Assembly: GCF_000519045.1 (NCBI RefSeq)
Contig: NZ_KI912532.1
Location: 2,418,001 to 2,482,000, forward strand
Direction of reading: 5' to 3'
DNA: 64,000 nt
From: Dechloromonas agitata is5
Lineage (GTDB): Bacteria > Pseudomonadota > Gammaproteobacteria > Burkholderiales > Rhodocyclaceae
Of the stretch, positions 35,486-58,058 are shown one piece after another. The notes under the pieces are model-generated. The model had not been told where the DNA came from, searched no databases, and saw only the letters and a program-made list of their open reading frames with translations. Within the stretch, counting starts at the first letter, position 1. The number at the start of each line of letters is the position of its first letter. The position numbers and the translations under genes are program-made.

Positions 35486-35489
35486 GGGG

Positions 35490-37450: not shown

Positions 37451-37526
37451 GTCTCAGTCTCCATTCGATGAACCACCCGGACACGGAGATGCCCGGATTT
37501 ACGGGAGCGCCCATACGGACGCGACA

Positions 37527-37570
37527 GAAAGCAGCCGGCGGTACGCAGACCGCCTTACGAGGCTGCTTTC
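37527..37570 (-). terminator. Nested hairpin after selA
   Basis: Outer stem GAAAGCAGCC/GGCTGCTTTC (37527-37536 with 37561-37570) overlaps the selA stop. An inner stem GGCGGT/ACCGCC encloses loop ACGCAG. The T-run is short, so it may attenuate rather than fully terminate. Confidence 0.55.
37538..37553. repeat. Selenium-linked 16-bp palindrome, copy 1
   Basis: GCGGTACGCAGACCGC, identical in stem and loop to 56558-56573. It lies 88 bp before the ATG of the FCSD-like gene. Confidence 0.7.
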
Positions 37571-38969
37571 AAAACTTGAGTTGCGCCAATTGCGCGACGA
37601 AACGGGCTTCGTCCTTCGCCTCCAGGCAACGCAGATCAAGATGGTACGCATCGTCGCGGATATAGCCGATGACGGGCATCGGCAGGCCACGGAAGGCGGC
37701 TTCGATGTTCAGCAGCAATTTCCCGCTCCTCTTGCACGGTGGCCGGACAACCAGCGCGGCCGACGGCAGGCTTTCCACCGGCAGGGCGCCGCTGCCGATC
37801 TGGCTGCGGCAGGGTTCGACCGAGATGCCGAACTGTTCGCCCAAGGCCGCTTGTAGAGCGGGCCTGATGCGTTCGGCACCGGCCGCGATGTCGGCCAGCG
37901 GCCGGGTCAGCAGGCGCAGTGTCGGCAGGCGCTCGGTCAGGCGATCCGGGTCGCGGTACAGGCGCAGCGTTGCCTCCAGTGCGGCGAGGGTGGTCTTGCC
38001 GACACGCAAGGCGCGTTTCAGCGGGTTCTTCTTGATTTTGGCGATCAAATCCTTGCGCCCGACGATCAACCCGGCCTGCGGGCCGCCAAGCAGTTTGTCG
38101 CCGGAGAAGGTGACGATGTCGGCACCAGCCGCCAGTGCCTGTTGCGGCGTCGGTTCGGCCGGCAAGCCGAGGGCAGCGAAGTCGGTCAGCGTGCCGCTCC
38201 CCAGGTCGACAACGAAAGGCAGTCCGGCGGCATGGGCGATGTCGGCGATGGCCTTTTCCTCGACCACCTTGGTAAAGCCGACGACAGCGTAGTTGCTGGT
38301 GTGCACCTTCATCAGCAGCGCCGTCTTCGGCCCGATGGCCTCGGCGTAATCCTTGTCGTGCGTGCGGTTGGTGGTACCGATCTCGACCAGCTTGACCTGT
38401 GCCCGGCGCATGACGTCCGGTACGCGGAAGGCCCCGCCGATTTCGACCAGTTCGCCGCGCGACACCACGGCTTCCTTGCCCTGAGCCAGCGCGTTGAGGG
38501 TGAGCAGTACGGCGGCGGCGTTGTTGTTGACGATGGTGGCGGCGATGTTCGGGTCACCGCCGGCGATCAGTTCGGCCAGCAGTTCGGAAACGAGGTCGTC
38601 GCGATCGCCGCGGCCGCCGGAGGCAAGGTCGTACTCCAGCGCGCAGGGCGAGCGGGCGGCCTCGACCATCAGCGCGATGGCGTCTTCGGCCAGCAAAGCC
38701 CGGCCGAGGTTGGTGTGCAGGACGGTGCCCGTCAGGTTGAATACCGGCCGCAAATTGGCGCGGCCGGTTTCGTCGGCCCGGCGGCGAATGGCGGCGAGCA
38801 GGGCGCCTTCGTCGGGCAGCGGCAGGCCGTGCCTGAGGCCCTCGCGGGCAGCGGCCAGTTCGGCGCGGATGCAGCCGGTGACCGGCTGGCGGCCGTGGCG
38901 GTCGATGGTGTCGGCCAGTTGCTGGAGCAGGCGGTCGACGGACGGAAGGTGGATTCTTGGTGAGGTCAT
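37569..38969 (-). CDS. selA: L-seryl-tRNA(Sec) selenium transferase SelA
   Basis: 466 aa (E. coli 463). SelA converts Ser-tRNA(Sec) to Sec-tRNA(Sec) with selenophosphate. PLP fold type I motifs: [48 protein letters not shown] and [12 protein letters not shown], where the lysine binds PLP. The ATG at 38969 with GGTGA upstream is preferred to a GTG three codons earlier. Downstream of fdhE in the same direction; SelD, which makes selenophosphate, is not in the window. Confidence 0.97.
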
Positions 38970-39104
38970 CGTTTTCACCCGGACCGGGCAGAAAGGATTG
39001 AAGGAAAGGGCTTTTCTCGCTAGCCGCGGCCCGCCTTGCCCGTTCGCGCTGAGCCCGGTTGAAGCGTTCTGCGCGAGCGTTGCGGGGCGTCGGCCGACAT
39101 TGGC

Positions 39105-40016
39105 TTACTCGCCGCCAGCGCCGATGAGGAGCAGGTTAGGCCCGGCCCGTTCGAAGCCGGCTTCGTCCACCAGCATGTCGAGGGCGATCGAGGCCAGGTC
39201 GTCGGCGACCGGGTCGACGTGGGCGTTCTTGCCCTGGTAGATGATCTTGAGATAGCTGTTGCAGCTCTCGCAGGACTCGGCACGGGCAATGCCGTCGTCG
39301 CCATCGATCTCGTGCAGGGCGAGTTTTTCGTCGTCGCCGCACAGGAGGCAGGTGGCACGGGGGGCGTTCCACTCCGTATTGCACAGGGTGCAGTGGGCGT
39401 AGCGCAGGTTTTCCACCGGGCCATCGGCACGAATGATGCTGGCCACCGGCAGGTTGCCGCACACCGGGCAGATGCTGCGGGCTTCCATCGGCGGCAGGCG
39501 CGTCGCGTCGAGCTGGACGGCAAGCCGGGTGAACAGGACTTGCAGGGCGGCAGCAATCAGCGGCAGGCGCGGCAGATCGTTCTTGTCGGGTTCGCCGGAG
39601 AGGAGCTGGTCAGCAAGCTTCTCCAGCCCTTCGCTGCTGGTGACCATGAGCGTGGAGAGGGTTTCGCGCAGGCCCTCGGGGGCATCGTCATTGACCAGCT
39701 CGATGATCCGCCCCAGAGCGTCGCGCCAGGTCGAGGGCCGCGGGAAGGAGGCGGTGGAGAGCGGCGGCATGCGGTGAATGCGGGCGCGTTCGAGGGATTC
39801 GGCGTCCGGCAGTTCGGCATCGGTCATTTCCTGCAGGGCCTGGTGCTGGGCGCGGGACAGGCGGCCCATGAAGGCCAGCCATTCGCCCAGGCTGTGGTCC
39901 TTGGCCAGGGCGTCGAAGCGCTCGGCGCGATCGAGGAAGATGCGCTCCGGATCGGGCAGACGGATGGTTGGAACGTCGGCGGTGGAGGAGGGCGGAGTGA
40001 AAAGTTGGGAAGGCAT
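39105..40016 (-). CDS. fdhE: Formate dehydrogenase accessory protein FdhE
   Basis: 303 aa. FdhE is a rubredoxin-like chaperone needed for activity of respiratory formate dehydrogenases. Four CxxC motifs are present in the C-terminal half (CPVC, CTLC, CLLC, CESC), which bind iron. Start ATG at 40016 gives MPSQLFTPPSSTADV. It follows fdnI by 64 bases and precedes selA by 135. Confidence 0.95.
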   Translation of the reverse strand: MPSQLFTPPSSTADVPTIRLPDPERIFLDRAERFDALAKDHSLGEWLAFMGRLSRAQHQALQEMTDAELPDAESLERARIHRMPPLSTASFPRPSTWRDALGRIIELVNDDAPEGLRETLSTLMVTSSEGLEKLADQLLSGEPDKNDLPRLPLIAAALQVLFTRLAVQLDATRLPPMEARSICPVCGNLPVASIIRADGPVENLRYAHCTLCNTEWNAPRATCLLCGDDEKLALHEIDGDDGIARAESCESCNSYLKIIYQGKNAHVDPVADDLASIALDMLVDEAGFERAGPNLLLIGAGGE

Positions 40017-40080
40017 GGTGTCGTCAAAAAAAGAGAGCGCGGGGATGATCATCCCTGCGCTCCCGAAACACAAGGCAATT

Positions 40081-40701
40081 TTATTTGCCGGTCACCTGGC
40101 GATACCAGGCACGATGATGCTGCTTGGCCCAGGCACGGGTCACCGTGCCATACCACATGGCGCGGATGGTGCCCTTGACCCAGATGGCGGCGTACACATG
40201 CACCATGATCAGCGCGATCATCACGGCGCCGATGGCGGCATGCACAACAGCCCCCAGGCGGACGAGCGTGATATCGAAGCCAAAGTAGGCACGCCAGATC
40301 AGGATGCCGGAAACGGTCATCAGCAGCATGCACAGGGCGGAGCCCCAGAACATGGCTTTCTGGCCGCCGTTGTACTTACCCTGTTCCGGCATGTTGTGGT
40401 CGTCGCCGTTCATCATCTCCTTGGCCCGGCTCAGCCATTCCTTGTCCGCCGGCGTCATCTTGTTCAGATGCTTGAAGCGGAAGAACAGCACGAGGAAGGA
40501 CACCGCCATCAGCACCCCGATGAAGGGGTGCAGAATGCGGGCCCAGACCGGGCCGCCGAACAGCTGGGTGAGCGGGAAGAAAGCCGGATGGAAGAAGGCC
40601 AGGCCGGAGAGCGTGAGCAGGATGAAGCTGATGCCCACTACCCAGTGGTTAGCCCGTTCGGACGCGTTGTAGCGCTTAAGGTCTTTCGGGTCGCGGATCA
40701 T
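40081..40701 (-). CDS. fdnI: Formate dehydrogenase cytochrome b556 subunit (gamma)
   Basis: 206 aa. Four membrane segments and conserved heme-ligand histidines ([56 protein letters not shown]). The subunit anchors the complex in the inner membrane and passes electrons from formate to quinone. Its ATG overlaps the fdnH stop by 4 bases. Confidence 0.95.
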
Positions 40702-41585
40702 TTTGCATCCTCCTTCTCGATCTCGTCCTCGATCTCCTTCGAGACCTCGTTCGGACCCTTGGTGACGTAGTGGAACAGGCTACCGAGCGCCACGCCGGCC
40801 AGCGCCAGGGTTGCGAGCGGCTTGGCCGCTCCCTTCCACAGCGAGACCAGCGGGCTGACCGACGGATTGGCCGGCAGGCCAGCGTACAGGTCGGGCTTGT
40901 CGGCATGGTGCAGCACGTACATGACGTGCGTACCGCCCACCCCTTGCGGGTCGTACAAGCCGGCCTGGTCGTAGCCGCGTTCCTTGAGGTCGGCGACACG
41001 CTTGGCCGCGTAGTCCTTCATGTCCTCCTTCGCCCCAAACTGGATCGCGCCCGTCGGGCAGGCCTTGGCGCAGGCCGGAGCCTGGTTGACGGCCACCCGG
41101 TCGGAACACAGCGAGCACTTGTAGGCCTTGCTGTCTTCCTTCGAGATGCGCGGGACGTTGAACGGACAGCCCGTCACGCAGTAGCCACAACCGATGCAGT
41201 TTTCCTGATGGAAATCGACGATGCCGTTGCTGTACTGGATGATGGCGCCCGGGGACGGACAGGCCTTCAGGCAGCCGGGATCGGCGCAGTGCATGCAGCC
41301 GTCCTTGCGGATCAGCCACTCGAGCTTGTTGTTCTGCTCGACCTCGGTAAAGCGCATGACCGTCCACGACTTGGCCGACAGGTCCATCGGGTTGTCATAC
41401 ACCCCGTGGCAGTTGCCGACTTCGTCGCGGATGTCATTCCACTCCGAGCACGCCACCTGGCAGGCCTTGCAGCCGATACAGGCGGAAACGTCGATCAGCT
41501 TGGCGATCTCCACCGTCTGCCGCACTTGCGTGGACGGCGTGGTGGTGGCGGAGCGCTGTTTGATGTCTAGCGATTGCAGTGCCAT
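40698..41585 (-). CDS. fdnH: Formate dehydrogenase iron-sulfur subunit (beta)
   Basis: 295 aa. Four ferredoxin-type clusters: [35 protein letters not shown] and [15 protein letters not shown] single C-terminal membrane helix ([19 protein letters not shown]) anchors it, as in E. coli FdnH. It wires the catalytic subunit to the cytochrome. Starts 12 bases after the fdnG stop. Confidence 0.96.
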
Positions 41586-41597
41586 ATCAGCTCTCCT

Positions 41598-44500
41598 TTA
41601 CGCCTTCTCGATGTTGACCAGGAACGCCTTGTACTCCGGCGTCTGCGTATTGGCGTCGCCCACAAACGGCGTCAGGGTGTTGGTGATGAAGCCTGGCTTC
41701 GTCGCCCCCTTGAAACCGTAGTGGATCGGAATGCCGATGGTATGCACCTTCTGGCCATCGACATCGAGTGCCTTGATCCGCTTGGTCACCACCGCCACGG
41801 CCTTGATGAAGCCGCGGTTGGAGCGCACCTTCACCTTGTCGCCGATGGCGATCCCCTTTTCCTTGGCCAGCTCCTCGCCAATTTCCACGAACTGTTCCGG
41901 CTGCATGATCGCGTTGATCTGGCTCTGCTTGGTCCAGTAGTGGAAATGCTCGGTCAGGCGGTAGGTGGTGCCGACATACGGGAAGTCCTTGGCCGTGCCG
42001 AACGCTTCCATGTCACCCTTGTACACGCGGGCCGCAGGGTTGGCGCGGGCCTTCGGGTTCTTCGGGTGCATCGGGTTCGTTTCGAGCGGGCTTTCGAACG
42101 GCTCGTAGTGCTCGGGGAAGGGACCTTCGGCCATCAGGCCGACGGCGAACAGGCGGCCAACACCCTCACCGGTCATGATGAAGGGCATGACGTTCTGGTC
42201 GGGCGCGGCATCCGGGCGCATGTCGGGGATATCGTTGCCGCCCCACTTGTCGCCCAGCCACTTGAGCACGGTGCGCTGCGGATCCCACGGCTTGCCGGAG
42301 GGATCGGCCGAGGCACGGTTGTACAGGATGCGGCGGTTGACCGGCCAGGCGAAACCCCAGTTCAGCGTCTGGCCGAGGCCGGACGGATCGCTGTTGTCGC
42401 GGCGCGCCGAGTTGTTGCCGGCCTGCGACCACACACCGCAGTAGATCCAGTTGCCGCAGGTGGTCGAACCGTCGTCCCGCAGCATGGCGAAGCTCGGTAA
42501 CTGATCGCCGGCCTTGACCAGCACCTTGGTCGGGTCCTTCGGGTCCAGCACGTCGGCCAGTGCCTTGCCGTTGTACTCCATCATCAGCTCTTCCGCCGAG
42601 GGCTTGGTCGGAATGCGATAGGCCCAGGTCAGCTTCTGGATCGGCTCGGAATAGGCGCCGCCATCCTTGGCGTACATGTCCTTCAGCTTCAGGAACAGGG
42701 TCGCCATGATTTCGGTGTCGTCCTTGGCATCGCCCGGCGCATCCACCGCCTTCCAGCGCCACTGGATGACGCGGCCGGAGTTGGTGAAACTGCCGGTGGT
42801 TTCGGCGAACAGCGAGGTCGGCAGGCGGAAGACTTCGGTTTGAATCTCGGCCGGCTTGACATCATTGAACTCGCCGTGCGGCTTCCAGAACTCGGAGGTA
42901 TCGGTTGCCAGCGGATCCATCACCACCATGTACTTCAGCTTGGCCAGCGCATCCGACACCTTCTTCTTGTTGGCGACGGAAGCCAGCGGGTTGAAGCCCT
43001 GGCACAGGAAGCCGTTGATCTTGCCCTGGTACATCTGGTCGAAGATCGACAGCACGTCGGAGGCGCCGGCCAGCTTGGGCATGAAATCGTAGGCGAAGCC
43101 GTTTTCCTTGGTCGCGGCGTTGCCCCACCAGGCCTTGTGCAGGCTGACGTACCACTTGGGCAGGTTCTGGCCGAAGTTCATCTGGCCCGGACGCAGCATC
43201 TTCGGCGTCTTCTTCTCGAGGAAGGTCTTCAGGTCCGGCTCGGCGTCAGACGGCACCGCCAGGTAGCCCGGCAGGTTCTGGGCGTAGAGCGCGAAGTCGG
43301 TGATGCCCTGGACGTTGGCGTGACCGCGCAGCGCGTTGATGCCGCCACCCGCCATGCCCATGTTGCCGAGCAGGAGCTGGATGATCGCCATACAGCGGAT
43401 GTTCTGGGAACCGACGGAGTGTTCGGTCCAGCCCAGTGCGTACAGGTTGGTCATCGTCTTGTTCGGCGCAGCCGTCTCGGCGATGTACTCGCAGACCTTC
43501 AGGAAGGCTTCCTTCGGCGTGCCGCAGACCTTGGCCACCATGTCCGGCGTGTAGCGGGCATAGTGCGCCTTGAGCAGCTGGAAGGCACAACGCGGGTTCT
43601 GCAGCGTTTCATCGACCTTGGCGAAGCCGTCCTCACCCATCTGGTATTTCCAGGTGGCCTTGTCGTAGCTGCGCTTCTCGTCGTTGTAGCCGGTGAAGAT
43701 GCCATCCTCGAAGCCGTAGCCATCGTCGATCAGGAAGGACGCGTTGGTATACGCCTTCACGTAATCGTGATGGATCTTGTCGTTCGACAGCAGGTAATTG
43801 ATGACGCCGCCCAGGAAGGCGATGTCGGAGCCCGGACGGATCGGCGCATAGTAATCGGCCACCGAAGCCGTACGGTTGAAGCGCGGGTCGACGACCACGA
43901 GCTTGGCCTTGCGGTTCTTCTTGGCTTCGATCGCCCACTTGAAGCCGCAGGGGTGCGCTTCAGCCGGGTTGCCGCCCATCACGAAAATCAAATCAGCGTT
44001 CTTGATGTCCACCCAGTGGTTGGTCATCGAACCACGCCCAAAACTCGGAGCCAGACTGGCCACCGTGGGAGCGTGTCAAATGCGTGCCTGGGTATCGATC
44101 GAGGTCATGCCCAACGCGCGAATCGTCTTCACGGTCAGGTAGCCGGCCTCATTCGGTGCTGCCGATGATGCGAGGAATGCGGTGCTGGTCCAGCGGTTGA
44201 CGGTCACGCCGTCCTTGTTCTGGGCCACGAAATTGGCGTCGCGATCGGCCTTCATGTGCTTGGCGATGCGGTCGAAGGCTTCCTGCCAGGAAATCTTCTT
44301 CCATTCCGCCGAGCCCGGCTCGCGCACTTCCGGCCACTTCAGACGATTGGCGCTCTGCACCATGTCGCGCAGGCCGGCGCCCTTCGGGCACAGGGTGCCG
44401 CGGTTGACCGGATTGTCCGGATCGCCTTCGATGTGAATGATTTTTCCCGGGGTGTTCTTGGACTTGTCACCGGTCGAATAGATGAGTACCCCGCAGGACA

Positions 44501-44663
44501 CCGAGCAGTACGGACAGATGTTCCGTGTTTCGGTGGCGCGGGCCAGCTTGAAGGTACGTACTTCCGCCAGGGCCGCATTCGGTGAGAAGCCCATCAGCGC
44601 GATGGACGACCCTCCCAGCCCGGCGGAGCAGACCTTGAAGAACTGCCGCCTGTTCATTTTCAT
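41598..44663 (-). CDS. fdnG: Selenocysteine formate dehydrogenase catalytic subunit (alpha)
   Basis: 1021 residues read through an in-frame UGA at 44076-44078, codon 196, exactly the position of Sec in E. coli FdnG/FdoG. Context QARI-Sec-HAPTVASLAPSFGRGSMTNHW matches that site. An N-terminal Tat signal (MNRRQFFKVCSAG) shows export. A [4Fe-4S] site is formed by CPYCSVSCG and CPKGA. The molybdenum or tungsten bis-MGD cofactor domain follows. The enzyme oxidises formate in the periplasm. Conventional annotation would split it into 44076-44663 and 41598-44063. AGGAGG precedes ATG 44663. Confidence 0.97.
44033..44078 (-). promoter_or_regulatory. SECIS element of fdnG
   Basis: Starting at the UGA, CACGC (after TGA) pairs with GCGTG, and an apical GCCA-GTC-TGGC stem-loop sits inside, the size and place expected of a bacterial SECIS recognised by SelB. 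Confidence 0.8.
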
Positions 44664-44682
44664 TTGGATTTTTCCTCCTGTA

Positions 44683-44699
44683 TGCGACTCCGTGTCGCA
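44683..44699. promoter_or_regulatory. Dyad TGCGAC-N5-GTCGCA before fdnG
   Basis: A perfect 6-bp dyad 20-36 bp upstream of the fdnG ATG, just before its ribosome-binding site. The same hexamers and spacing occur at 61239-61255. Confidence 0.55.
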
Positions 44700-44784
44700 G
44701 TGGAAATCAGCAGCAAAGAACAGGCCAGTTTGCGTAAGTCATTGAACGATGGGGAATCGCTTTGGGGCTGGCGTGGCGCGACTG

Positions 44785-44826
44785 GGACATTTTGTCCATT
44801 CGCGTTCATTTCAGGACAAATTGTCC
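44785..44826. promoter_or_regulatory. Paired GGACA-N3-TGTCC operators upstream of fdnG
   Basis: GGACATTTTGTCC (44785-44797) and GGACAAATTGTCC (44814-44826), centres 29 bp apart, about three helical turns. They lie 120-165 bp upstream of fdnG and share CAGGACAAATT and TTTTGTCCA with 25994-26026. Confidence 0.55.
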
Positions 44827-44889
44827 CGTCCTGTGGAGGCCTGCCAAGGTTTTGCCAGCGCCGATTCCCGGCGGTGACCAGGCCCGTTG

Positions 44890-46242
44890 TCAGCGCCCGC
44901 GGGCCTTTCGCCCGTTGCCGGCCGACGAGCGGGTGCCCGGGCCGCTATGGCCGCTGCCGTGCGGGCCGCGGCGCCCGCCGGGCTTGGCTGGGAAATCATC
45001 GAAGCCCTCCCAGTTGCCGGGCACCCCGCGGCCACTTCGCCCAGCCGCGACCTTGGGCTTCTTCGGCTTGGGCGGTGCGGCATGCGGGCCGGTCGGCGGC
45101 ACGCGGTGGGTCGGCTCGAAACCGGGTTCCTCGTCGCGGCTCAAGCTGGTCTTGAGCAGGGTTTCAATGGCGCCAAGCAGCGGCGCCTCATCGGCGCACA
45201 CCAGCGAGATGGCCTCGCCGGACGCGCCGGCCCGGCCGGTACGGCCGATACGGTGGATATAGTCTTCGGCGACCAGTGGCAGGTCAAAATTGACCACCTG
45301 CGGCAAGCCGTCGATATCCAGGCCGCGCGCCGCCACGTCAGTTGCGACGAGAATCTCGATCTCGCCGGCCTTGAAGGCTTCCAGCGCCTTGAGGCGGGAG
45401 GCCTGCGGCCGGTCGCCATGAATGGTGTCAGCAGCGATGCGCTTGGCCTGCAGGCGGCCGACCAGTTCATCGCAACCCTTCTTGGTTTTCACGAAGACCA
45501 GCACCTGGCACCAGCCCCGGTCCTTGCGCATGAACAGGAAGAGATCGGTCTTGCGCTTCTTGTCGCAAGGCACAACCCACTGCTTGACTGTCGTGGCGGC
45601 CGTATTGCGCGGGCTGACCTCGATCGACAGCGGATCGCGCAGGCGGGCCTTGGCCATGCTGCGGATGTCGTCGGAGAAGGTGGCCGAGAAAAGGAGGGTC
45701 TGCCGTTTTTTCGGCAAGGCCTGGAACAGGATGTCGAGATCGTCGGCAAAGCCAAGGTCGAGCATGCGGTCGGCTTCGTCGAGTACCAGGGTCTGCACCT
45801 GGCGCAGCTTGACGGCGTTCTTGGTGAACAGGTCGATCAACCGGCCCGGCGTGGCGACCAGAATGTCGACGCCACGGCGCAGGCGCATCATCTGCGGGTT
45901 GATGCTGACGCCGCCGTAGGCGGCATAGGAACTGACGGCCAGATGTTCTCCGTACTGGCGGAAGCTGGCCATCACCTGTTCGGCCAGTTCGCGCGTCGGC
46001 ACCAGCACCAGGGCGCGGATGCTGTTGCTGGCGACGGCTTCGTCGCGCTCGCTCAAGCGCTGCAGCAGGGGCAGGGCAAAGCCGGCGGTCTTGCCGGTGC
46101 CAGTCTGCGCCGCCGCCATCAGGTCGCGGCCGGCCAGCACGGCCGGAATGGCCTGGGCCTGGACCGGCGTCGGTTCCTGGTAGCCGAGGGTGTCGAGAGC
46201 CTGGAGAAGCGGTGCGGCGAGGCCGAGCTGGGCGAAAGTCAT
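44890..46242 (-). CDS. rhlE: DEAD-box RNA helicase, RhlE type
   Basis: 450 aa. Q motif and FAQLGLAAPLLQALDTLGYQEPTPVQ, Walker A AAQTGTGKTAGFALPLL, PTRELAEQV, DEADRMLDLGF, SATF, HGDRPQASRLKALEAFK and HRIGRTGRAG are all intact. The C-terminal 70 residues are basic and Gly/Pro/Arg-rich, as in RhlE. RhlE remodels ribosome precursors and assists RNA decay. The ATG at 46242 starts directly at MTFAQLGL; the longer frame overlaps the upstream gene. Confidence 0.93.
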   Translation of the reverse strand: MTFAQLGLAAPLLQALDTLGYQEPTPVQAQAIPAVLAGRDLMAAAQTGTGKTAGFALPLLQRLSERDEAVASNSIRALVLVPTRELAEQVMASFRQYGEHLAVSSYAAYGGVSINPQMMRLRRGVDILVATPGRLIDLFTKNAVKLRQVQTLVLDEADRMLDLGFADDLDILFQALPKKRQTLLFSATFSDDIRSMAKARLRDPLSIEVSPRNTAATTVKQWVVPCDKKRKTDLFLFMRKDRGWCQVLVFVKTKKGCDELVGRLQAKRIAADTIHGDRPQASRLKALEAFKAGEIEILVATDVAARGLDIDGLPQVVNFDLPLVAEDYIHRIGRTGRAGASGEAISLVCADEAPLLGAIETLLKTSLSRDEEPGFEPTHRVPPTGPHAAPPKPKKPKVAAGRSGRGVPGNWEGFDDFPAKPGGRRGPHGSGHSGPGTRSSAGNGRKARGR

Positions 46243-46291
46243 GGCGGGAAGGGGTGTTCGAAAGCGCGGATTGTAAACTGCCGGCGTTGGC

Positions 46292-47995: not shown

Positions 47996-48116
47996 GGGCT
48001 GCCGGTTGAGGTTGAAACGGGGTGCGGCCCGCGCACCCGGCCGCCGGGGAGCGACACCATGTCGCTTACCGGTGGGTTTTACACCTCGGCCTGCGCAGGC
48101 GCAAGCCGGGCGGAGT

Positions 48117-48470: not shown

Positions 48471-48554
48471 GGCAAGAGAGAGGAGATACGAATGACCTTG
48501 GCCGGCAGCATCTTCGCCGACCGGGTTGAGTGAGATGGCCTGGGTTGGCCGCGC

Positions 48555-49163
48555 TCAGGAGAACTTTGCCTGGTGGGCAGCGACTGCCTTCTGGCGGGCG
48601 GCCGCCAGGCGCTGGGCGACTGTATCGGGCAAGGCCTCGCCATCGTCCGGTACGTGGGCCAGGGCATAGGTTTCAAGCGCCTTCAGGCGGGCCATCAGCA
48701 GGCGGACGCGGGCGGTGTCGGAGAGGTCGGCAAGCCCTTGGTCGTCGTCGCCATCGTTGTCGACGACGAGGCGCGGGCGGCTGTAGAACTGGTGCAGCAC
48801 CAATTCGTCGTAACCGGCCGGGCCATCCTCGTCATTGAAGAAATTGAATAGCGGCTGGCCGTTGGCTTTCTGGGCGGCTGCAAGCAGGGCGACCTGATGC
48901 CGCTCAGTGCGCGACAACAGGATCTGCGGAAATACCTGCTTCTTGGCCAGCTTGGCCTTCTTGGCCGCGCGCAGCTTGGCGGCCGGGTTGACCGGAGCGA
49001 GCAACTCCGTGACCTGGGCCGGCATCGGCACCGGAGTAATCGTCACATCGGCCGGTGTATTCGCCGCGTCTACGAACGACACCGTCTCGTCAGCCGACGG
49101 GTCGGCTGCATGAACATTCAACGAGAACAGTGCGGCACAAGCCACGACCCACCAGATACGCAC
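48555..49163 (-). CDS. Exported protein of unknown function
   Basis: 202 aa from GTG 49163, which has AAGGAAAGG six bases upstream; a TTG six codons earlier is the alternative. A signal peptide (MRIWWVVACAALFSLNVHA) precedes a Lys-rich segment (KLRAAKKAKLAKKQVFPQILLSRTERHQVALL) and an acidic stretch (VVDNDGDDDQGLADLSD). The end is Ala/Lys-rich helix. I do not recognise the family. Confidence 0.75.
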   Translation of the reverse strand: MRIWWVVACAALFSLNVHAADPSADETVSFVDAANTPADVTITPVPMPAQVTELLAPVNPAAKLRAAKKAKLAKKQVFPQILLSRTERHQVALLAAAQKANGQPLFNFFNDEDGPAGYDELVLHQFYSRPRLVVDNDGDDDQGLADLSDTARVRLLMARLKALETYALAHVPDDGEALPDTVAQRLAAARQKAVAAHQAKFS

Positions 49164-49219
49164 GACGATCCTTTCCTTCAATCAGGACAGTATTTTATCA
49201 ATAGCAGAGGAAGTTTGTT

Positions 49220-49720
49220 TTAGCGAGGATTCATATATCGGATTTCGACCCGGCGCTGCAGGCGCAGGCATTCCTCCGACTGGCAGTTCGCGCTGTTCTC
49301 TTCGACGCCTGCCACGGCACGCCGCATCTGCCGGGCGGGGACGCCCAGTTCCCGCAGATGATTGTGCACGCTCGTGATCCGTTTGTCGGCCAGAGCCAGG
49401 CTGAAGGTGCGGCTGCCCGTGCTGTCGCTGAAACCGGCCAGGGTGACCTGCTGTTTCGGGTTCGCCTTCAGGCGTTCGGCATGCTGGCGGAGCACGGTGC
49501 GGCCGGCGTCGTCCAGACTGGCCGAATTGCGGCTGAAGAAAACACTGCTGCCGGTATCGATGGCGGCCATTGCCTGTTTCTCGCTGCGCTCGGCGGCGGC
49601 CGAGTTGCGGCCCGGGGCATCGGTTGCCGTAGCGGCAGCCGGGTTGGCCGCGGGCGGCGGGGCGCTGGCACAGCCGGCGAGTAGCGCGATGAGGGCCAAG
49701 ACCAAGGGGCGGAAAGGCAT
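49220..49720 (-). CDS. OmpA-family lipoprotein (Pal-like)
   Basis: 166 aa. Lipobox ALIALLAGCAS and an Ala/Pro-rich linker precede an OmpA-like domain (VFFSRNSASLDDAGRTVLRQHAERLK, LAGFSDSTGSRTFSLALADKRITSVHNHLRELGV). A CQSEECLRLQRRVEIRY ending adds two cysteines unusual for the domain. The ATG at 49720 has AGGAGA seven bases upstream inside the trmA stop; an ATG two codons earlier has no usable site. Confidence 0.88.
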   Translation of the reverse strand: MPFRPLVLALIALLAGCASAPPPAANPAAATATDAPGRNSAAAERSEKQAMAAIDTGSSVFFSRNSASLDDAGRTVLRQHAERLKANPKQQVTLAGFSDSTGSRTFSLALADKRITSVHNHLRELGVPARQMRRAVAGVEENSANCQSEECLRLQRRVEIRYMNPR

Positions 49721-49722
49721 GT

Positions 49723-50811
49723 TCATCTCCTGACCAGCAACACGCCGCACTCCAGGTGATGCGTGTAGGGAAACTGGTCGAAAACGGCGGCCGAGGCAAT
49801 ACGATGCGTATCGTGCAGGGCGGCCACGTTGTTCTTCAAGGTCTCCTGGTTGCAGGAGATGTACAGGATGCGATCGAAATCGCGGGCGAGTTCGACGGTT
49901 GCATCGTCCAGGCCGGCGCGCGGCGGGTCGACAAACAGCGTGCCGTGGCGGAAGGCGTCGAGATCAATGTCCTTCAGACGCTGGAACTGCTCGCGGCCGG
50001 CCAGCGCGGCGCTGAATTCTTCGGCTGACATGCGGGCGAGCTGGATGTTGGTGACGCCATTGGCGGCGATGTTGTACTGCGCGGCATGCACCGACGTCTT
50101 GCTGACCTCGGTGGCCAGCACCCGGTCGAACAGCGGGGCCAGCGCGATGGTGAAGTTGCCGTTGCCGCAGTACAACTCGACCAGGTTGCCGCCGATTCCC
50201 GCTGCCTGCTGGCAGGCCCAGCCGAGCATCTGGCGGTTGATGCCGCCGTTCGGCTGCGTGAAGCTGCCCTCGACCTGCTGGTATTTGAGCGGACGACCGT
50301 TCAGTTCGAAAGCTTCGAGCAGCCAGTCGCGCTCCAGCACCACCTTCTGGCCCCGGCTACGGCCGATGATCTGGGCACCGAATTCGGCCGCCAGTTCGCG
50401 GGCTGCCGTCTGCCATGCGTCGTCCAGCTTGCGGTGATAGATCAGCGTGATCATCAGCTCGCCGCTCAGGGTGGCGAGGAAGTCGACACGGAACAGCCGG
50501 CGCCGCAGAACATCGCTACCGGCCAGTCGCTCGCGCAAGCGCGGCATGGCGGCACAGATGACGGCAGCGGCCGGCGGGAAGGTGTCGAGCAGCAGGCGCT
50601 GCTTGGGATTGTCCGGGTCGGACATCGTGAAATCGAGCTTGTCGCCATCGTGCCAGATGCCGAACTCGACGCGCATGCGATAGTGCAGCGGTTCTGAGGC
50701 GTGAACGGTCGGTTTCGTGACACCGAATTCGGCGAAATTCTGTTCGAAGCGGGCAGCCTTGGCGGCCAGCTGCACCGGATAATCGGCGGGGTCGTATGTC
50801 GGAAGCGGCAT
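49723..50811 (-). CDS. trmA: tRNA (uracil-5-)-methyltransferase TrmA
   Basis: 362 aa (E. coli 366). It methylates U54 of tRNA to ribothymidine. Conserved motifs: YRMRVEFGIWHDGD, SFTQPNGGINRQML, the SAM motif LVELYCGNGNFTIAL, VDPPRAGLD and the nucleophile region YISCNQETL. Length and start fit TrmA rather than RlmD/RlmC, which carry a TRAM domain or an iron-sulfur motif at the N-terminus. Confidence 0.96.
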   Translation of the reverse strand: MPLPTYDPADYPVQLAAKAARFEQNFAEFGVTKPTVHASEPLHYRMRVEFGIWHDGDKLDFTMSDPDNPKQRLLLDTFPPAAAVICAAMPRLRERLAGSDVLRRRLFRVDFLATLSGELMITLIYHRKLDDAWQTAARELAAEFGAQIIGRSRGQKVVLERDWLLEAFELNGRPLKYQQVEGSFTQPNGGINRQMLGWACQQAAGIGGNLVELYCGNGNFTIALAPLFDRVLATEVSKTSVHAAQYNIAANGVTNIQLARMSAEEFSAALAGREQFQRLKDIDLDAFRHGTLFVDPPRAGLDDATVELARDFDRILYISCNQETLKNNVAALHDTHRIASAAVFDQFPYTHHLECGVLLVRR

Positions 50812-51672
50812 GGTTCGGTGGTTTGAATGCGTTTTGCAGCCCGTTTGACGTGCGATGGCCGCGTGAAGAGGGCGAAATATACGCCGGTCCGGCAGGCATT
50901 GGGAGCTTTGATTTCGGGATACAGAGGGTGAAATTGCCTCTATCGACCAATCGGCTCGCCATGATTGAATGGCTCGACTCGACCCACAGGCGACGTTGCC
51001 AACGCTCCCGCTATGAAGAGATACAAAAAAATCACCAGCATTTGAAGCTGCCGCTCATTTGCTCAAGACCGTTTATTTGATCAGTACTCGGGAGGCTGGA
51101 TTACGATGGCTGGGAGCTGCACAACTGCACCGCGCTCCTGATACCTGGTCGGTGGATAGTCCCCGGAGTGGCGAGGGCCTTCACACTTGCGTTCCTCCTT
51201 GCACCTTCCGTGCTTCTCCCATTTCCGCTCAATTTTGCAGTTGCCGCCCCTCTATTCTTCTTTGTTGTCGCCCCCCTTGGGCTTTGAGTTGACTGTCGTG
51301 AGAGAGGGTCGGGAAAGCCAATTTTGATGCGTATGACCTTATCGTTACTCGCTGGCTTTGCGCTAGATTCCTACTGTGTTGCTGCCGGCGGTTTGTGGAG
51401 TTTTGTCATCCACGGAAAATGACAATATGATGCTGTGGCCCATTGGAGTGTCAATTCTCATGTGGAACCTTACCGTATCCCAAAGGCAACCAACTCACAG
51501 CAATTCGATGAGCGTGAAGGGAAGGCAACAGTAACGCTTGGCGATGAGCGCAATATGCCGCATGCACTCAGGGGTTTTGTCGTAGCATGCCCCCAAAATG
51601 TTCACTTAAAAATAATTTAGCTTTTCAGCATCCCGGGGCAGCCCAGCCAGCCTCACAACAGAGACGGTTCAA
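50812..51672. other. Gene-poor, lower-GC stretch upstream of the diguanylate cyclase
   Basis: About 860 bases without a gene I can support. Composition is visibly less GC-rich than the flanks. Short open frames (50796-51080, 51435-51620) have no ribosome-binding site or recognisable product. One frame at 51076-51288 encodes a strongly hydrophobic tail (IVPGVARAFTLAFLLAP and on) without a start codon, perhaps a remnant. Confidence 0.5.
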
Positions 51673-52878
51673 ATGAGTCAAAACGTGCACGTCGAGGCGG
51701 CGCTCTTTCGTCACCTGCTCGACCATTCTGTTATTCCCCTGATTGGGAGCGCCATTGGTGGCTCACTAGTGGGCTTGGCCCACATGGATTCTCCTTATCA
51801 ACAGCAAGTTTTGGTTTGGCTCTTCGTTCTTTACGCAACAATCGTCATTCGAGCCCTCCTGACAAAGCGCTGCCGCTCCCGATTTAAGGAAATGGGATAT
51901 TCCCGTCCAGAGGCGATTCGATATGCGCTGACAACGGGATTGTCTGGTTTTGCCTGGGGCATGGGGGGGCTATTTGTGTTGGATGCCTCCCCGCTGGCAA
52001 TGGTTGTCACCATTACAGCAATCCAAGCAATGATAATGGGCGGTGCGCTGACGCTCGGCGCTTATCTCCCTTCGTTTTATGCGTTCTCCCTGCCTGCAAT
52101 CCTCCCACTTGTCGTGGCCTTGGGACTGAAGGGGGGGGGTACAAACATCGTACTTGCCCTTTACAGCGCAATATTCCTCGTATTGATGCTGGATATTGCC
52201 AAACGACTCAATCACTCATTGCGAGATGTATGGAAACTGACCTTTGAGAAAGAATACCTGCTTAGCGAACTGACAAAGGCCAACGACCATCAAAAAACTT
52301 TGGCAAACACTGACGGATTGACTGGCATTGCCAACCGGCGCCGGTTTGACGACGTACTCGCACAGGAATTAGCCCGCTTTTCTCGAACAAACTCCCCGCT
52401 TTCACTCTTGATATTGGATGTCGACCACTTCAAAACGTTTAATGACGCATATGGCCATGTCGCCGGCGACGAGTGTTTGAAGCAGATAGCCGAAATCCTG
52501 AAGAAACAATTTAATCGTGCCTCCGACATGGCCGCCAGGTACGGAGGCGAGGAGTTTGCCATCATCATGCCCGATACAGATGAAAGGGGTGCCATACAAA
52601 AGGCTGAAGTGATTCGCAGTGAGGTTGCGAAATTGAACATACAACATGGACACTCACCTACGGCAGGCTACATCACCGTCAGCATGGGCATTGTCACTCT
52701 ATACAACTCCGATATCCGTGAAGCCAATGATTTGATTGCAATGGCAGATGAGTGTCTCTATCAAGCAAAAGCGGATGGGCGAAATCGGTTTGTGTCGACT
52801 CGCTTGAAGCACGACGTTCTGCAACGACCTAGCTGCGAAGATAATCTGGAGGAAGCGTACTGCGACGTTGGCCCCTGA
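51673..52878 (+). CDS. Membrane-bound diguanylate cyclase (GGDEF)
   Basis: 401 aa. About five to six membrane segments in residues 15-175 form an uncharacterised sensor module. A GGDEF domain follows from about residue 215: TDGLTGIANRRRFD, LLILDVDHFKTFNDAYGHVAGDECL and the signature GGEEF, so the active site is intact. An RxxD-type I-site (RASD) lies four residues before the signature. Product: cyclic di-GMP. Codon use is less GC-rich than neighbours. A G9 tract at 52131-52139 and a G7 tract at 51963-51969 lie upstream of the catalytic domain. Confidence 0.92.
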   Translation: MSQNVHVEAALFRHLLDHSVIPLIGSAIGGSLVGLAHMDSPYQQQVLVWLFVLYATIVIRALLTKRCRSRFKEMGYSRPEAIRYALTTGLSGFAWGMGGLFVLDASPLAMVVTITAIQAMIMGGALTLGAYLPSFYAFSLPAILPLVVALGLKGGGTNIVLALYSAIFLVLMLDIAKRLNHSLRDVWKLTFEKEYLLSELTKANDHQKTLANTDGLTGIANRRRFDDVLAQELARFSRTNSPLSLLILDVDHFKTFNDAYGHVAGDECLKQIAEILKKQFNRASDMAARYGGEEFAIIMPDTDERGAIQKAEVIRSEVAKLNIQHGHSPTAGYITVSMGIVTLYNSDIREANDLIAMADECLYQAKADGRNRFVSTRLKHDVLQRPSCEDNLEEAYCDVGP

Positions 52879-53228
52879 TTTGTCGTGTTGCCCGAGGGGG
52901 CAGAGGATGTACGTAATCGCGTGATATGACGCGCCTAACCTACGTTGTAGGTATCCTGCGTGAAATAAACCGACGCAACAGGGGCGGCGGAACTGGAAAC
53001 CAGCCTTGGCATGGATTCGAACCATGGCGATTGTTAAGTCGCTTGCTATTTGGGCTGAAGTATTGAGGCCCCAGACTCCTATGTGGCTAGGGTAAACCGA
53101 TTCATCGGCTGCCCTGTCGTTCATGCTTGACGTATTCTTCGGCGGGCGGGGTTTCCCCCAAAAAGGTGGGTTGCGACGTTCGTCCATTCCTCAAAACGCC
53201 GCCCCCCCTACTTGAAGATCCTGCCGGC
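52879..53228. other. Intergenic stretch between convergent genes
   Basis: 350 bases with no credible gene. Only small inverted repeats are seen, such as CCTAC-GTT-GTAGG near 52940, and C-rich tracts near 53150 and 53208. No clear terminator for the diguanylate cyclase gene. Confidence 0.4.
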
Positions 53229-54779
53229 TCAGCGCATCCGCTGCCGCAGCCAGGCGCTGGCCTGATCGACGGCAATGGACAACGCCAGCATGGCGATGAT
53301 GACGGTCGAGGCTTGCGCGTAATGGAAGAGCGACAACGCGACATAGAGCAGTTGCCCCAGGCCGCCGGCGCCGACGAAGCCGAGGATGGCGGCCATGCGG
53401 ATGTTCATCTCCCAGCGGTAGAGCGTGTAGGCGATCAGCTGCGGTGCGGCGCCGGGCAAGGTGCCGTAGAGGAAGGCCAGGCCGGGGCCGGCGCCGCTCA
53501 GGCGCAGTGCCTGGCTGGGCTGGGCCGGTGCATTGGCCAGCGCTTCGGCGTAGAGCCGGCCCAGTACGCCGGCAGTGTGCAAGGCCAGCGCCAGCGCCCC
53601 GGCAAACGGGCCGAGGCCGACGGCGAGCGCGGTGAGGGTGGCCCAGACCAGTTCCGGCACTGAACGCAGGGTATTGAGCACGAAACTGAAGGGCGCACGC
53701 GGTTGGGGCAGGGCCAGCAGCAGGCCTAGCAGGGCGGCAAGCAGGGTACCGACGATGGAAATGGCCAGCGTTTCCCATACCCCCTGGCCGACCCGGTCCA
53801 GCCAGTCGGCCGACAGGTCGGGTGGGAAGAACCCGCTGACGAATTCGGCCATGCTGCGGGCGGCTTCGATGCTCAGCAAGTCGCCGATGCCTAGTTCCAG
53901 GAAACGGTAGCTGGCCACGATGCTGCCGGCCAGGGCCGCCGCGACCAGGCCGCTGCGCCAGCCAAAAGGCGACGGGTGGGCCGCCGGTGGCGCATCGAGG
54001 GCCCGGCGCAGCCAGCTGGAGAGCCCGTCAGCAGCAAAGACCAGGACCATGAAGGCGAGCAGGATGCTGGCCGCTTCGCCGCCGTTGAGCATCTTCATCG
54101 CCTGATCCATCAACTGGCCGAGGCCGCCGGCGCCGACGAAGCCCATGACCACCGAGGCGCGGATGGCGCATTCCCAGCGGTAGACGGTGTAGGAGGTGAG
54201 CTCCCGGGCGGCTTGCGGCAGCAGGCCGTAGAGGATGGCCAGCGGCCGCCTGGCGCCGCTCTGGCGCAGGGCCTGGGCGGGCCTGGTATCGACCGATTCG
54301 AGGATTTCGGCATACACCTTGGCCAGCATGCCGCCGTAGGTGAGGCCGAGCGCCAGCACGCCGGCCGCCGGGCCGAGGCCGAAAACGCGAACGAAGAGCA
54401 GCGCCCAGACCAGTTCCGGGATGCCGCGCAGCAGCGTGAGCAGGCTGCGGGTCAGCGGGTTGAGGGCGGGGCGTTCGCGGCCGGCGGCGGTTGCCAGATA
54501 GGCCAGCGGCACGGCCAGCAGGAAGGCGAGTGCGAGGCCGGTGGTGGCGATGGCCAGTGTTTCCAGCGTCGCCTGGCCGAGAAAGCCGAGGAATTCGCGG
54601 CTGTTTTCCGGCGGCAGGAAGCCGGCCAGGAAGTGGCCGATCACCTTCAGGTTGCCGGCATCGAACAATGCCCCGGGTTTGACTTCGGCTGCCTGCAGGA
54701 GTGGCCAGAGGATGACGAGCGCAGCCAAGGTGCCAACGAGGCGGGAGCGGGCGGCAGGGTCGTTCAGGCGGGCTTCCAT
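53229..54779 (-). CDS. phnE: PhnE-type ABC permease, tandem fusion
   Basis: 516 aa, made of two homologous PhnE-like permease units. Each carries LRxxPELVWA (residues about 120 and 375), then an EAA-type loop ILYGLLPQAARELTSYTVYRWECAIR or FLYGTLPGAAPQLIAYTLYRWEMNIR, and GFVGAGGLGQL. So one gene replaces the usual pair phnE1/phnE2. The start at 54779 gives MEARLNDPAARSRL. It is third in the operon after phnD and phnC and would form the channel for the anion bound by PhnD. Confidence 0.9.
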   Translation of the reverse strand: MEARLNDPAARSRLVGTLAALVILWPLLQAAEVKPGALFDAGNLKVIGHFLAGFLPPENSREFLGFLGQATLETLAIATTGLALAFLLAVPLAYLATAAGRERPALNPLTRSLLTLLRGIPELVWALLFVRVFGLGPAAGVLALGLTYGGMLAKVYAEILESVDTRPAQALRQSGARRPLAILYGLLPQAARELTSYTVYRWECAIRASVVMGFVGAGGLGQLMDQAMKMLNGGEAASILLAFMVLVFAADGLSSWLRRALDAPPAAHPSPFGWRSGLVAAALAGSIVASYRFLELGIGDLLSIEAARSMAEFVSGFFPPDLSADWLDRVGQGVWETLAISIVGTLLAALLGLLLALPQPRAPFSFVLNTLRSVPELVWATLTALAVGLGPFAGALALALHTAGVLGRLYAEALANAPAQPSQALRLSGAGPGLAFLYGTLPGAAPQLIAYTLYRWEMNIRMAAILGFVGAGGLGQLLYVALSLFHYAQASTVIIAMLALSIAVDQASAWLRQRMR

Positions 54780-54786
54780 CGCGAGG

Positions 54787-55605
54787 TCAGCAGCAGGCAG
54801 CCCGTGTCGCCGCAGCGTGGGCGGCGATCTCGGGCAACAGATGCGATTCCGTTGCCTGGGTCGGCAGTTCCTGGCCCTCGCTGGCATACAGCTCGTGAAG
54901 CAGGGGGAGCGAGACCTGCTCGTTCGGCAGGTCGAAAACGACGCGGCCAGCCTTGATGCCAACGATGCGTGTGAAGTTGCCGAGGGCCAGGTCGACAGCG
55001 TGCAGGCTGGCGACCAGCGTCGCGCCGCATGCTTCGGCCTCGGCGACGAGCAGCCGGATGGTGGCCAAGGCCAAGGCCGGGTCGAGGGCGGAAACCGGCT
55101 CGTCGGCGAGGATCAGGGTGGGCTGCTGGTAGAGCACGCGGGCGATCCCGACGCGCTGCAACTGGCCGCCCGACAGTTGGTCGCAGCGGGCGAACAGCTT
55201 GTCGGCCAGGTCGACCCGCTCAAGCGCCGCGCGGGCACCGGGCAGGTCGCATGGGTAAAGCAGCGAGGCCAGCGATTTCCAGGTTGGCCATTGCCCCAGC
55301 TTGCCGGCCAGCACGGCGGTGACGACGCGTTGCCGGCCGGGGATGGGCGGCGCCTGGTGCACGGTGCCGATGCGGGTGCGCAGGAGGCGGGGCAGGGCAT
55401 TCTGCAGCGGCTGGCCGAGCACCTCGCCCCGGCCGCTGGTCGGCATCAGCGCGGTGCCGAGCACCGAGAGCAGGCTGGTCTTGCCGGCGCCGGACGGTCC
55501 GACCAGGGCGATGCGTTCGCCCTGGTCGGCGCACAGGCTGATGTCAGCCAGCGCCGTAAAACCGTTGGCGTGGGTCAGCCCCACACCGTCCAGCCGGAAA
55601 CTCAC
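54787..55605 (-). CDS. phnC: PhnC-type ABC transporter ATPase
   Basis: 272 aa. Walker [11 protein letters not shown]-loop [25 protein letters not shown] typical of PhnC, signature [15 protein letters not shown], Walker [14 protein letters not shown] and H-loop SLH. It overlaps the stop of phnD by 4 bases. It energises uptake by the PhnE-like permease. Confidence 0.92.
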
Positions 55606-56477
55606 TTCAGCAGGCCAGCCGACTGGGCAGCCTTCTCGATGCCGTCGTAGTTCTCTTTCCGGGTCGGGATGAACTTCGACGCCCGCTGCAGGGCCATGAT
55701 TTCCTTGTGTTCCGGGTTGGCCGGGTCGAGTTTGAGGAAGGCGTCGGTCAGCTTCTTGACCAGAGCCGGGTCGAGGTCGCCGCGCACCGTCCAGTTGTAG
55801 TCGAAATAGGGCGGCGTGGTGGCGAAGACGCGCACCTTGTCGGTATCGACCTTTTTCTGCTCGACCAGCTTGTCCCAGACGGAAGCGTTCAGCACGCCGG
55901 CCTCGGCCTTGCCAGCGGCGACAAAGGCAACCGTCGCATCATGGGCGCCGGAGAAGGCGACGTTCTTGAAATCCTTTTCCGGATTCAGGCCGGCCTGCTG
56001 CAAGAAGAAACGCGGCATCAGGCTGCCCGAGGTGGAGGACGGCGCGCCGAAGGCGAAAGTCTTCCCCTTCAAGTCGGCGAGGCCCTTGATGGCCGGGTCG
56101 GCGGTGATGAACCGGGAGGTGAATTTGGCATCCTCCTCGCGCTGGACGATGGGGATGGCTGTGCCGGTGGTGCGGATCTTGGCCTGCACGTAGGTGAAGC
56201 CACCCAGCCAGGCGAGGTCGATCTTGCGCGTGGCGAGCGACTCGACGACGGCGGCGTAGTCGGAAACCGGGGTGAACACCACTTTCAGGCCGGTTTGCGC
56301 TTCGAGATACTTGCCGAGCGGCGCGAACTTGCGTTGCAGTTCAGTCGGCGCTTCGTCGGGGATAGCCGAGACGCGCAGCACGTTGTCGGCAGCCAGGGCA
56401 GGGAGGGAAAAGGCGGCAGCGCAGGCACAGGCCAACGCCCCCTTCAGCGCCAGACGGCGCGTGGCGGACAGGGTCAT
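55602..56477 (-). CDS. PhnD-family binding protein, putative selenate/selenite type
   Basis: 291 aa. A signal peptide ([17 protein letters not shown]) precedes a PhnD-type periplasmic fold with [62 protein letters not shown] and [17 protein letters not shown]. From memory, the IPDEAPTEL opening and the WLGGFTYVQ block fit the PhnD clade that NCBI names putative selenate ABC transporter substrate-binding protein. The other choices are phosphonate or phosphite. The sel island in the same window supports selenium. ATG 56477 with GGAG upstream. Confidence 0.7.
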
Positions 56478-56557
56478 TTGATGCTCCGATTTTGACAACA
56501 ACCGCTGCCGTGCGGAAATCGCGGCAGCTTAAAGGCGCCGGGGCGCCACCAGGACGT

Positions 56558-56573
56558 GCGGTACGCAGACCGC
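56558..56573. repeat. Selenium-linked 16-bp palindrome, copy 2
   Basis: GCGGTACGCAGACCGC, identical to 37538-37553. It lies 81 bp before the phnD-like ATG and on the other side 121 bp before the response-regulator gene. Confidence 0.7.
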
Positions 56574-56693
56574 GGGCGGCATTTTAACAGGTCGATCGGC
56601 CGGCCCGGACTTGGGGTTTGCCGCGCTGCCCTTCCGTCCGGCAGGCATGAGAAAATCCGGCCAAACAAACGCATAACGGAATGTGGCGGAGAC

Positions 56694-58036
<1,343 letters not shown>

Positions 58037-58058
<22 letters not shown>

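Follow-up and report, generated by a model that had tools for sequence, protein, structure and literature searches.

A structured 5' leader RNA shared by the selenocysteine and putative selenate-transport operons of Dechloromonas agitata: a candidate riboswitch-like element

Two leaders in the genome of Dechloromonas agitata

The window analysed here is a stretch of 64,000 nt from Dechloromonas agitata is5 (contig NZ_KI912532.1, assembly GCF_000519045.1), and all positions are given in its own numbering. The 16-mer GCGGTACGCAGACCGC occurs in it at 37538-37553 and 56558-56573, with no third site when up to 2 mismatches were allowed; in the whole 3.63 Mb genome it is likewise found only these two times, allowing up to 1 mismatch. 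These scans confirmed the two identical copies reported in a first-pass annotation of the window, and its description of their setting also held: both are intergenic and face in the same direction relative to the minus-strand gene that follows, 88 and 81 nt from the starts at 37450 and 56477. The comparative results below support the conclusion that the 16-mer is the first hairpin (P1) of a structured 5' leader RNA and not a stand-alone palindrome, so that the palindrome is a real element of a larger unit. On balance we lean towards the leader being a structured cis-regulatory RNA, a candidate riboswitch-like class for selenium homeostasis, with the selenium cue suggested by gene context.

The genome holds two such leaders, one downstream of selA and before an FCSD-like gene (leader 1) and one before an ATP-binding cassette (ABC) operon of the TIGR04553 type (leader 2). 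All genes and leader elements of the two operons lie on the minus strand. The selA gene directly upstream of leader 1 (37569-38978) scored 558 bits against TIGR00474 (cut-off 268). The first gene after leader 1 encodes an FCSD-like flavoprotein (36116-37450; Pfam FCSD_central and Pyr_redox_2) with an N-terminus that looks to be of the twin-arginine translocation (TAT) type, the Pfam TAT_signal score of 19.9 bits being under the cut-off of 22.7. It is followed by a flavin mononucleotide reductase/flavodoxin-fold gene (35490-36041; identified with Pfam, start picked by eye), by the selB open reading frame (ORF) at 33608-35734, named by reading the translation without a hidden Markov model and with its true start probably further in, and by selC, the selenocysteine tRNA gene, at 33507-33602, located by an RNA search of the window. 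The gene following leader 2 (55602-56477) encodes a putative selenate ABC substrate-binding protein that is a member of NCBIfam TIGR04553 (389 bits, cut-off 250), a family defining a protein, not an RNA, and with a putative substrate. Next in the operon are a PhnC-like ATPase (54787-55605; TIGR02315, 184 bits, under the cut-off of 266) and a double-length PhnE-type permease (53229-54791; TIGR01097, 429 bits, cut-off 217, matched in two stretches). Elsewhere in the window, a selenocysteine insertion sequence (SECIS) element of the SECIS_3 type at 44023-44081, positioned where the formate dehydrogenase alpha gene (fdhA) has an in-frame TGA, is a sign of selenocysteine use. An NtrC-type sigma-54 response regulator and a histidine kinase (56694-60049, plus strand) diverge from the transporter operon.

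The leader is structured over ~75-95 nt, and ~100 nt are counted from P1 to the start codon. Read from the flanks, the conserved unit comprises P1, a variable hairpin (P2), UUAAgCC, a long hairpin (P3), YGGYU, a Shine-Dalgarno sequence and the start codon. The P1 loop has the consensus CUGNGU, the foot of P3 forms a conserved AA / GG-Y internal loop, and the apical loop of P3 is complementary to the Shine-Dalgarno sequence. In leader 1, P1 (37538-37553, sense strand GCGGUCUGCGUACCGC), supported by the model match and by covariation in relatives, is flanked by the two strands of a further stem, P0. The 5' strand, GAAAGCAGCC at 37561-37570, was recognised from the sequence and shares 2 nt with the stop codon of selA; the 3' strand, GGCTGCTTTC at 37527-37536, was recognised from sequence, fold and P0 covariation. 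P2 (37507-37522), outside the covariance model and assigned from sequence and fold, is followed by the P3 domain AAA..UGGUU (37471-37500; covariance model match 37470-37556, E 1.8e-8), with the apical loop UCUCCGU at 37483-37489 as the putative anti-Shine-Dalgarno element, and the Shine-Dalgarno region AUGGAGA at 37458-37464. In leader 2, a -10-like box, TAAAAT (56581-56586), lies 7 nt before P1 (56558-56573; model match and fold). Its P2, GGCGCCCCGGCGCC at 56534-56547, was likewise assigned from sequence and fold, and the P3 domain AAG..CGGUU (56500-56530; model match 56499-56576, E 8e-10) carries the loop UUUCCG (56513-56518) ahead of the Shine-Dalgarno sequence CGGAG (56484-56488).

The first-pass annotation held a chance 16-base match so placed to be very unlikely, an argument that proved too strong: third-order Markov versions of the window contained between 1 and 27 repeated 16-mer words (mean 12.4), and in 6 of 60 versions a 16-mer that recurred had arms of 5 bp. 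Because repeated 16-mers are expected in GC-rich DNA of 64 kb, the significance of the element rests on relatives and not on the window. The search among relatives located the exact 16-mer in 20 of 297 genomes of the same family, at 23 places; 9 of the 23 copies (the window's included) immediately precede a TIGR04553-like gene, and every one of the 9 has the same orientation and the same sense strand. The relatives rule out chance for the element, which the sel operon has in common with the ABC operon of the selenate type. Frequent 16-mer repeats in 64 kb would also suit a chance or repetitive extragenic palindromic (REP)-type origin, which is nonetheless already refuted and of negligible probability in view of at most 2 exact copies per genome among the 297, recurrence at the same places before the same genes, and covariation. 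Further, looser sites in the D. agitata genome were rejected, a degenerate pattern allowing up to 1 mismatch giving 32 matches on both strands versus 76 for the reversed control.

Comparative support for the RNA fold

A seed alignment (A1, MAFFT) was made from 40 of 46 leaders, leaving out L023, L027, L031, L035, L060 and L067. With P1 and P3 marked, 97.9% of cells were paired and two-sided changes were present in 10 of 14 pairs, whereas sliding the partner strand left 34-67% paired. Since the structure had been read off that same alignment, which had itself been gathered partly by exact P1, a covariance model was built to collect further leaders. The resulting alignment A2, fitted to the model, comprised 101 leaders (99 distinct), being 99 of 107 family matches together with L155 and L156; both window leaders, L035, L060, L067 and L180-L182 were left out owing to a limit of 100 sources and near-duplicates. 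Two-sided changes were then found in 13 of 14 pairs, amounting to 196 two-sided cells, and the covarying pairs included 4 of 5 in P1 and all 8 main pairs of P3. Pairing fell from 96.3% to 31-65% when the partner strand was slid, and the covariation score was 0.453 versus 0.184 in shuffles, none of 500 being as high. When one transporter leader was taken per genus (14 genera), at least 2 Watson-Crick types occurred in 10 of 14 pairs and 187 of 195 cells were paired.

The unpaired letters are also conserved. In the P1 loop the C was found in 100 of 101 leaders and the G in 96 of 98; at the foot of P3, the two A residues before the stem were present in 99 and 98 of 101, and the two G residues after it in 97 of 100 and 101 of 101. 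These results point to a conserved structured RNA with covariation in a 5' leader, as looked for in riboswitches. When the piece between P1 and the start codon is folded, leader 2 shows P1, P2 and the lower part of P3. An anti-P1 switch, in which the 3' strand of P1 would pair with the YGGYU end of P3, was rejected, with a mean energy of -5.02 versus -5.01 in permutations and 2282 of 5000 permutations as good.

Pairing of the P3 loop with the Shine-Dalgarno sequence

In leader 1 the P3 loop AUCUCCGU can form 7 bp with AUGGAGA (-8.8 kcal/mol), and in leader 2 UUUCCG can form 5 bp with CGGAG (-5.3 kcal/mol). A Shine-Dalgarno sequence was recognised in all except 5 of the 101 leaders (L129, L132, L136, L143 and L156), the remaining 96 yielding 87 distinct loop/Shine-Dalgarno pairs. 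The mean duplex energy of these pairs was -8.03 versus -6.99 (standard deviation 0.19) when partners were permuted, with none of 20,000 permutations as good; control loops gave -5.81 when shuffled and -5.19 when reversed. Concerted changes were seen in L164 (GUUCC with GGGAC) and in L120 (UCCCC with GGGGA). The Shine-Dalgarno picks were automatic and those of L055, L105 and L109 look wrong; removal of doubtful picks and of non-ATG starts (n = 81) still left none of 20,000 permutations as good, and 34 of 20,000 were as good in a hand-thinned set (n = 29). Comparison thus supports, short of proof and somewhat less strongly than for the fold, a pairing between the P3 loop and the Shine-Dalgarno sequence in a pseudoknot that would block ribosomes.

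Transcription start and an enclosing stem

A TATAAT-like box 6-9 nt before P1 was found in 43 of 48 transporter leaders and, with the same pattern, in 0 of 53 others, several of which carry GATAAT or GACAAT at that position as judged by eye. From this spacing, transcription of the transporter operons should start at P1, which implies that the element works as RNA and not as an upstream operator. The first-pass annotation had left open the choice between an operator and an RNA hairpin, and it is the hairpin that the results favour. If the palindrome were a DNA operator bound by a transcription factor, this would explain the inverted repeat, which covers the likely transcription start in transporter leaders; such an operator is nevertheless highly improbable given the single orientation, the want of a -10 box (by the pattern used) at the selA-linked copies, the second covarying stem and the loop/Shine-Dalgarno covariation.

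In leaders of the FCSD type the bases flanking P1 form the extra enclosing stem P0 in a fixed register. After L199 (too short) and L002 (pattern unmatched) had been dropped, 26 FCSD and 26 transporter leaders were compared. The FCSD leaders (21 distinct) had a mean of 6.46 of 8 pairs versus 5.06 when permuted, none of 5,000 permutations being as good, and the same register in the transporter leaders gave 3.23 of 8, i.e., the stem is absent. A second P1-like hairpin of the CCGAUCUGYGUAUCGG type is present ~10-30 nt before P1 in some non-transporter leaders (L101, L104, L106, L113, L114, L127 and L148); it often lies within a CCGGGCA/UGCCCGG stem and is perhaps a tandem receptor module.

Occurrence in related genomes

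The 297 family genomes were scanned with the covariance model at E <= 0.01 per genome, the E-values being rough, and 107 leaders were found in 95 of them; ~3 chance matches are expected at this threshold. A protein search with the window's TIGR04553 member found 74 genes, here termed TIGR04553-like, in 73 of the 297 genomes, and 53 of the 107 leaders lie within 250 nt upstream, on the same strand, of 53 of these 74 genes. Clustering and reading of ORFs placed the other 54 leaders mainly before FCSD-like genes (~26, the window's included) and before a TlpA-like and/or transglutaminase-like gene (~23), with 2 before an acyl-CoA dehydrogenase gene, 1 before EgtB and 2 receiving no gene assignment. 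SelB-like ORFs, named by reading, were found downstream in at least 15 loci. Up to 4 ORFs were kept per locus, hence gene counts are lower bounds.

An order-level scan detected the leader in 8 of 399 genomes, two of them outside the family; in both of these, the ORF after the leader again reads as the substrate-binding protein. In the family of one of the genomes (G426) it was present in 3 of 180 genomes, the new one likewise before a binding-protein-like ORF, and a class-level scan found it in 1 of 114, which was the window's own genome. A pattern scan of named genomes returned 38 loci, of which 34 were credible at 50-72 bits and L187, L203, L217 and L222 (22-27 bits) were counted as chance. 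By name, 27 of the 34 belong to Rhodocyclales or its genera, namely Zoogloea, Dechloromonas, Azonexus, Azoarcus, Aromatoleum, Thauera, Pseudothauera, Niveibacterium, Oryzomicrobium, Accumulibacter and Sulfuritalea. The rest were 6 named only 'beta proteobacterium' or 'Proteobacteria bacterium' and 1 Acidovorax metagenome-assembled genome (MAG). Named carriers other than MAGs are strains of Azoarcus, Aromatoleum, Zoogloea, Niveibacterium and Pseudothauera.

The genes typically found first after the leader seem to encode exported proteins: the binding protein is periplasmic, the FCSD-like protein scores just under the TAT cut-off, and the N-termini of the others appear signal-like by eye. This suggests a periplasmic capture module.

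Connection to selenium and proposed mode of action

Among pairs on the same contig, picked by eye, at least 24 of the 107 leaders start 5-190 nt beyond the end of a selA gene read in the same direction (24 of the 26 rows have a gap of no more than 190 nt); one of these leaders, in G108, follows a selA fragment below the cut-off. In 12 of 73 genomes a TIGR04553-like gene is no more than 10 kb away from selA or selD, in one through a selA fragment. The search for selD covered 109 genomes, namely 55 leader-bearing genomes without selA, unfiltered for completeness, and 54 hand-picked controls, all at least 95% complete; selD was above cut-off in 54 of the 55, the exception being 76% complete. It is plausible from this gene context that the leader responds to selenium.

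The comparison supports the fold, and from fold and context we infer on/off control, ligand sensing and selenium as the cue. Formation of the pseudoknot would exclude ribosomes and turn the downstream gene off, and a ligand bound to the P1/P3 core would shift the balance. The ligand may be selenium in some chemical form, or a molecule that closely reflects selenium status, such that high selenium would turn uptake operons off. Transporter leaders would be expressed from their own promoter on a transcript beginning at P1. Leaders behind selA lack the -10-like box, and those of the FCSD type enclose P1 in P0, the stem that in the window extends into the stop codon of selA. We tentatively entertain, at somewhat less than an even chance, the more specific proposal of a new riboswitch class, present in Rhodocyclales and in a few of their relatives, that would sense a selenium species directly (e.g., selenide, selenite or selenophosphate) and would control the translation of an apparently exported module for selenium capture, made up in that case of the ABC binding protein, the FCSD-like flavoprotein, a TlpA-like thioredoxin and a transglutaminase-like protein.

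Several observations weigh against an RNA of this kind that serves selenium homeostasis. Regarding the fold, 27 of 99 rows cannot form the P3 pair beside the loop; in a few leaders (L144-L146, L177 and L178) P1 is degenerate or short-looped. The single-sequence fold of leader 2 is no stabler than shuffles (z 0.24, 0.17, 0.30 and -0.16) and a shorter piece refolds P1, while leader 1 shows P1 only when the P0 strand is included (z -3.87 then). With one transporter leader per genus (n = 14), 519 of 20,000 permutations were as good as the real loop/Shine-Dalgarno pairs; this covariation weakens because permutations leave shared ancestry in. Behind selA, the block would hit the first gene, and an effect on selB would need coupling. 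Regarding gene context, 21 of 74 TIGR04553-like genes have no model match in front. Some leaders precede genes with no obvious link to selenium: two before an acyl-CoA dehydrogenase (nearest NCBIfam Rv1679, under cut-off), L138 (1501-2873) before an EgtB-type gene, and one before a PhsA-like molybdoenzyme. SelD is common anyway, being found in 44 of the 54 controls, which lack both leader and selA. The genome-level tie to selA is loose, with both present in 40 genomes, the leader alone in 55, selA alone in 47 and neither of them in 155 (odds ratio 2.4, p 0.0016 by Fisher's test), a modest association implying that selenocysteine itself is not required; a strict universal tie to selenocysteine is ruled out by the 55. 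Finally, since TIGR04553 is a 'hypothetical equivalog', the selenate substrate is a curator's guess, and solved kin of the protein bind phosphonate, phosphite and arsenic species.

This kinship, with phosphite/phosphonate binders, ArrX and Aio-type binding proteins, would also fit a riboswitch for a sulfur, phosphorus, arsenic or redox metabolite in place of selenium, and the FCSD-like, TlpA-like and PhsA-like genes would suit sulfur chemistry. The recurrent siting behind selA, the SelB-like ORFs downstream in 15 loci and the proximity to selD make such a ligand unlikely, if to be taken seriously. A protein, either a dedicated RNA-binding protein or a general regulator, could also use the pseudoknot as its expression platform. 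P1 is small with a conserved loop, and a strict pattern found it in duplicate in 7 of 53 non-transporter and 2 of 48 transporter leaders, features also known from protein-binding leaders; however, the conserved internal-loop letters at the foot of P3 and the compact layout resemble an aptamer, and we hold a protein ligand to be improbable without being negligible.

Binding of SelB with selenocysteyl-tRNA to the leader as a SECIS-like element, repressing translation, would account for the siting behind selA in sel operons, and P1 holds GGUCUGC, which we take to be present also in the fdhF SECIS loop. This proposal is very unlikely: of the 95 genomes with the leader, 55 gave no selA match above cut-off, and 50 of these 55 have a completeness of 90% or more (no search was made for SelB itself). 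In addition, no SECIS model matched a leader in the window at the gathering threshold or in 20 loci under relaxed settings, although SECIS_3 did match fdhA of the window. With 54 of those 55 genomes having selD, SelB is an unlikely general sensor.

Comparison with known RNA elements

With Rfam 15, no leader match at gathering score was obtained in the window. In relaxed searches (6 loci at E <= 5 and 14 loci at E <= 1) the sole overlap with a leader was sX2 in L002, on the opposite strand and at chance level (20.2 bits versus a gathering score of 40, E 1.8). Short translational riboswitches of the preQ1 and SAM-II types use Shine-Dalgarno pseudoknots. Like these, the present element is a 5' leader with a compact hairpin and a predicted pseudoknot capturing the Shine-Dalgarno sequence; unlike them, it has no Rfam 15 match in the loci searched and other genes downstream. 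Judged from sequence comparison, it may be a cis-regulatory RNA working like a translational riboswitch outside the families of Rfam 15. The E. coli selAB leader reportedly contains a SECIS-like RNA element, proposed to set translation by selenocysteine status, and is to our knowledge the only RNA precedent for bacterial selenium sensing. Both are RNA elements in a sel operon proposed to tune translation; in contrast to the E. coli element, the leader described here has no SECIS match, occurs in genomes lacking selA, and carries its own anti-Shine-Dalgarno loop.

In a literature search, provisional in that it covered few subscription journals, none of the titles listed dealt with a selenium riboswitch or with the present motif. 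Searches for terms within papers found no occurrence in PMC11109978 and PMC2864571; the mention in PMC8632094 concerns Selenomonadales, and the passages matched in PMC7266159 include none on selenium. The reference list of PMC8124441 includes a title on the E. coli selAB leader (Thanbichler & Boeck 2002).

How bacteria gauge their own selenium level is largely an open question. A short RNA with off-switch geometry, common to uptake and selenocysteine operons in named strains, makes selenium sensing directly testable. The leader would help in assigning roles to the 'selenate' transporter and to the FCSD, TlpA and transglutaminase genes, and could furnish a selenium biosensor.

Individual loci

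For the EgtB-type gene after L138, an assignment as SenA was rejected, the EgtB cut-off being passed (539 bits versus 360) and that of SenA failed (356 versus 420). In a Zoogloea oleivorans MAG (L227, 99-3446) a leader with a TATAAT box is followed by a 4Fe-4S subunit and a molybdoenzyme of the PhsA/dimethyl sulfoxide reductase family, possibly a selenium or sulfur oxyanion reductase; assignment as selenate reductase was rejected after both L188 and L227, the genes scoring under every NCBIfam cut-off. At L100 (1501-1590) a complete leader is followed by a reading frame that meets a stop within a few codons; the protein search gave no TIGR04553-like match in this genome, and the leader is perhaps a relic. 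Both leader contexts are united in one place in three genomes (contigs G174:C4, G108:C16 and G219:C84), where a diverged TIGR04553-like gene (39-42% identity) is found within ~2 kb of a leader and of selA, the latter being a fragment in G108.

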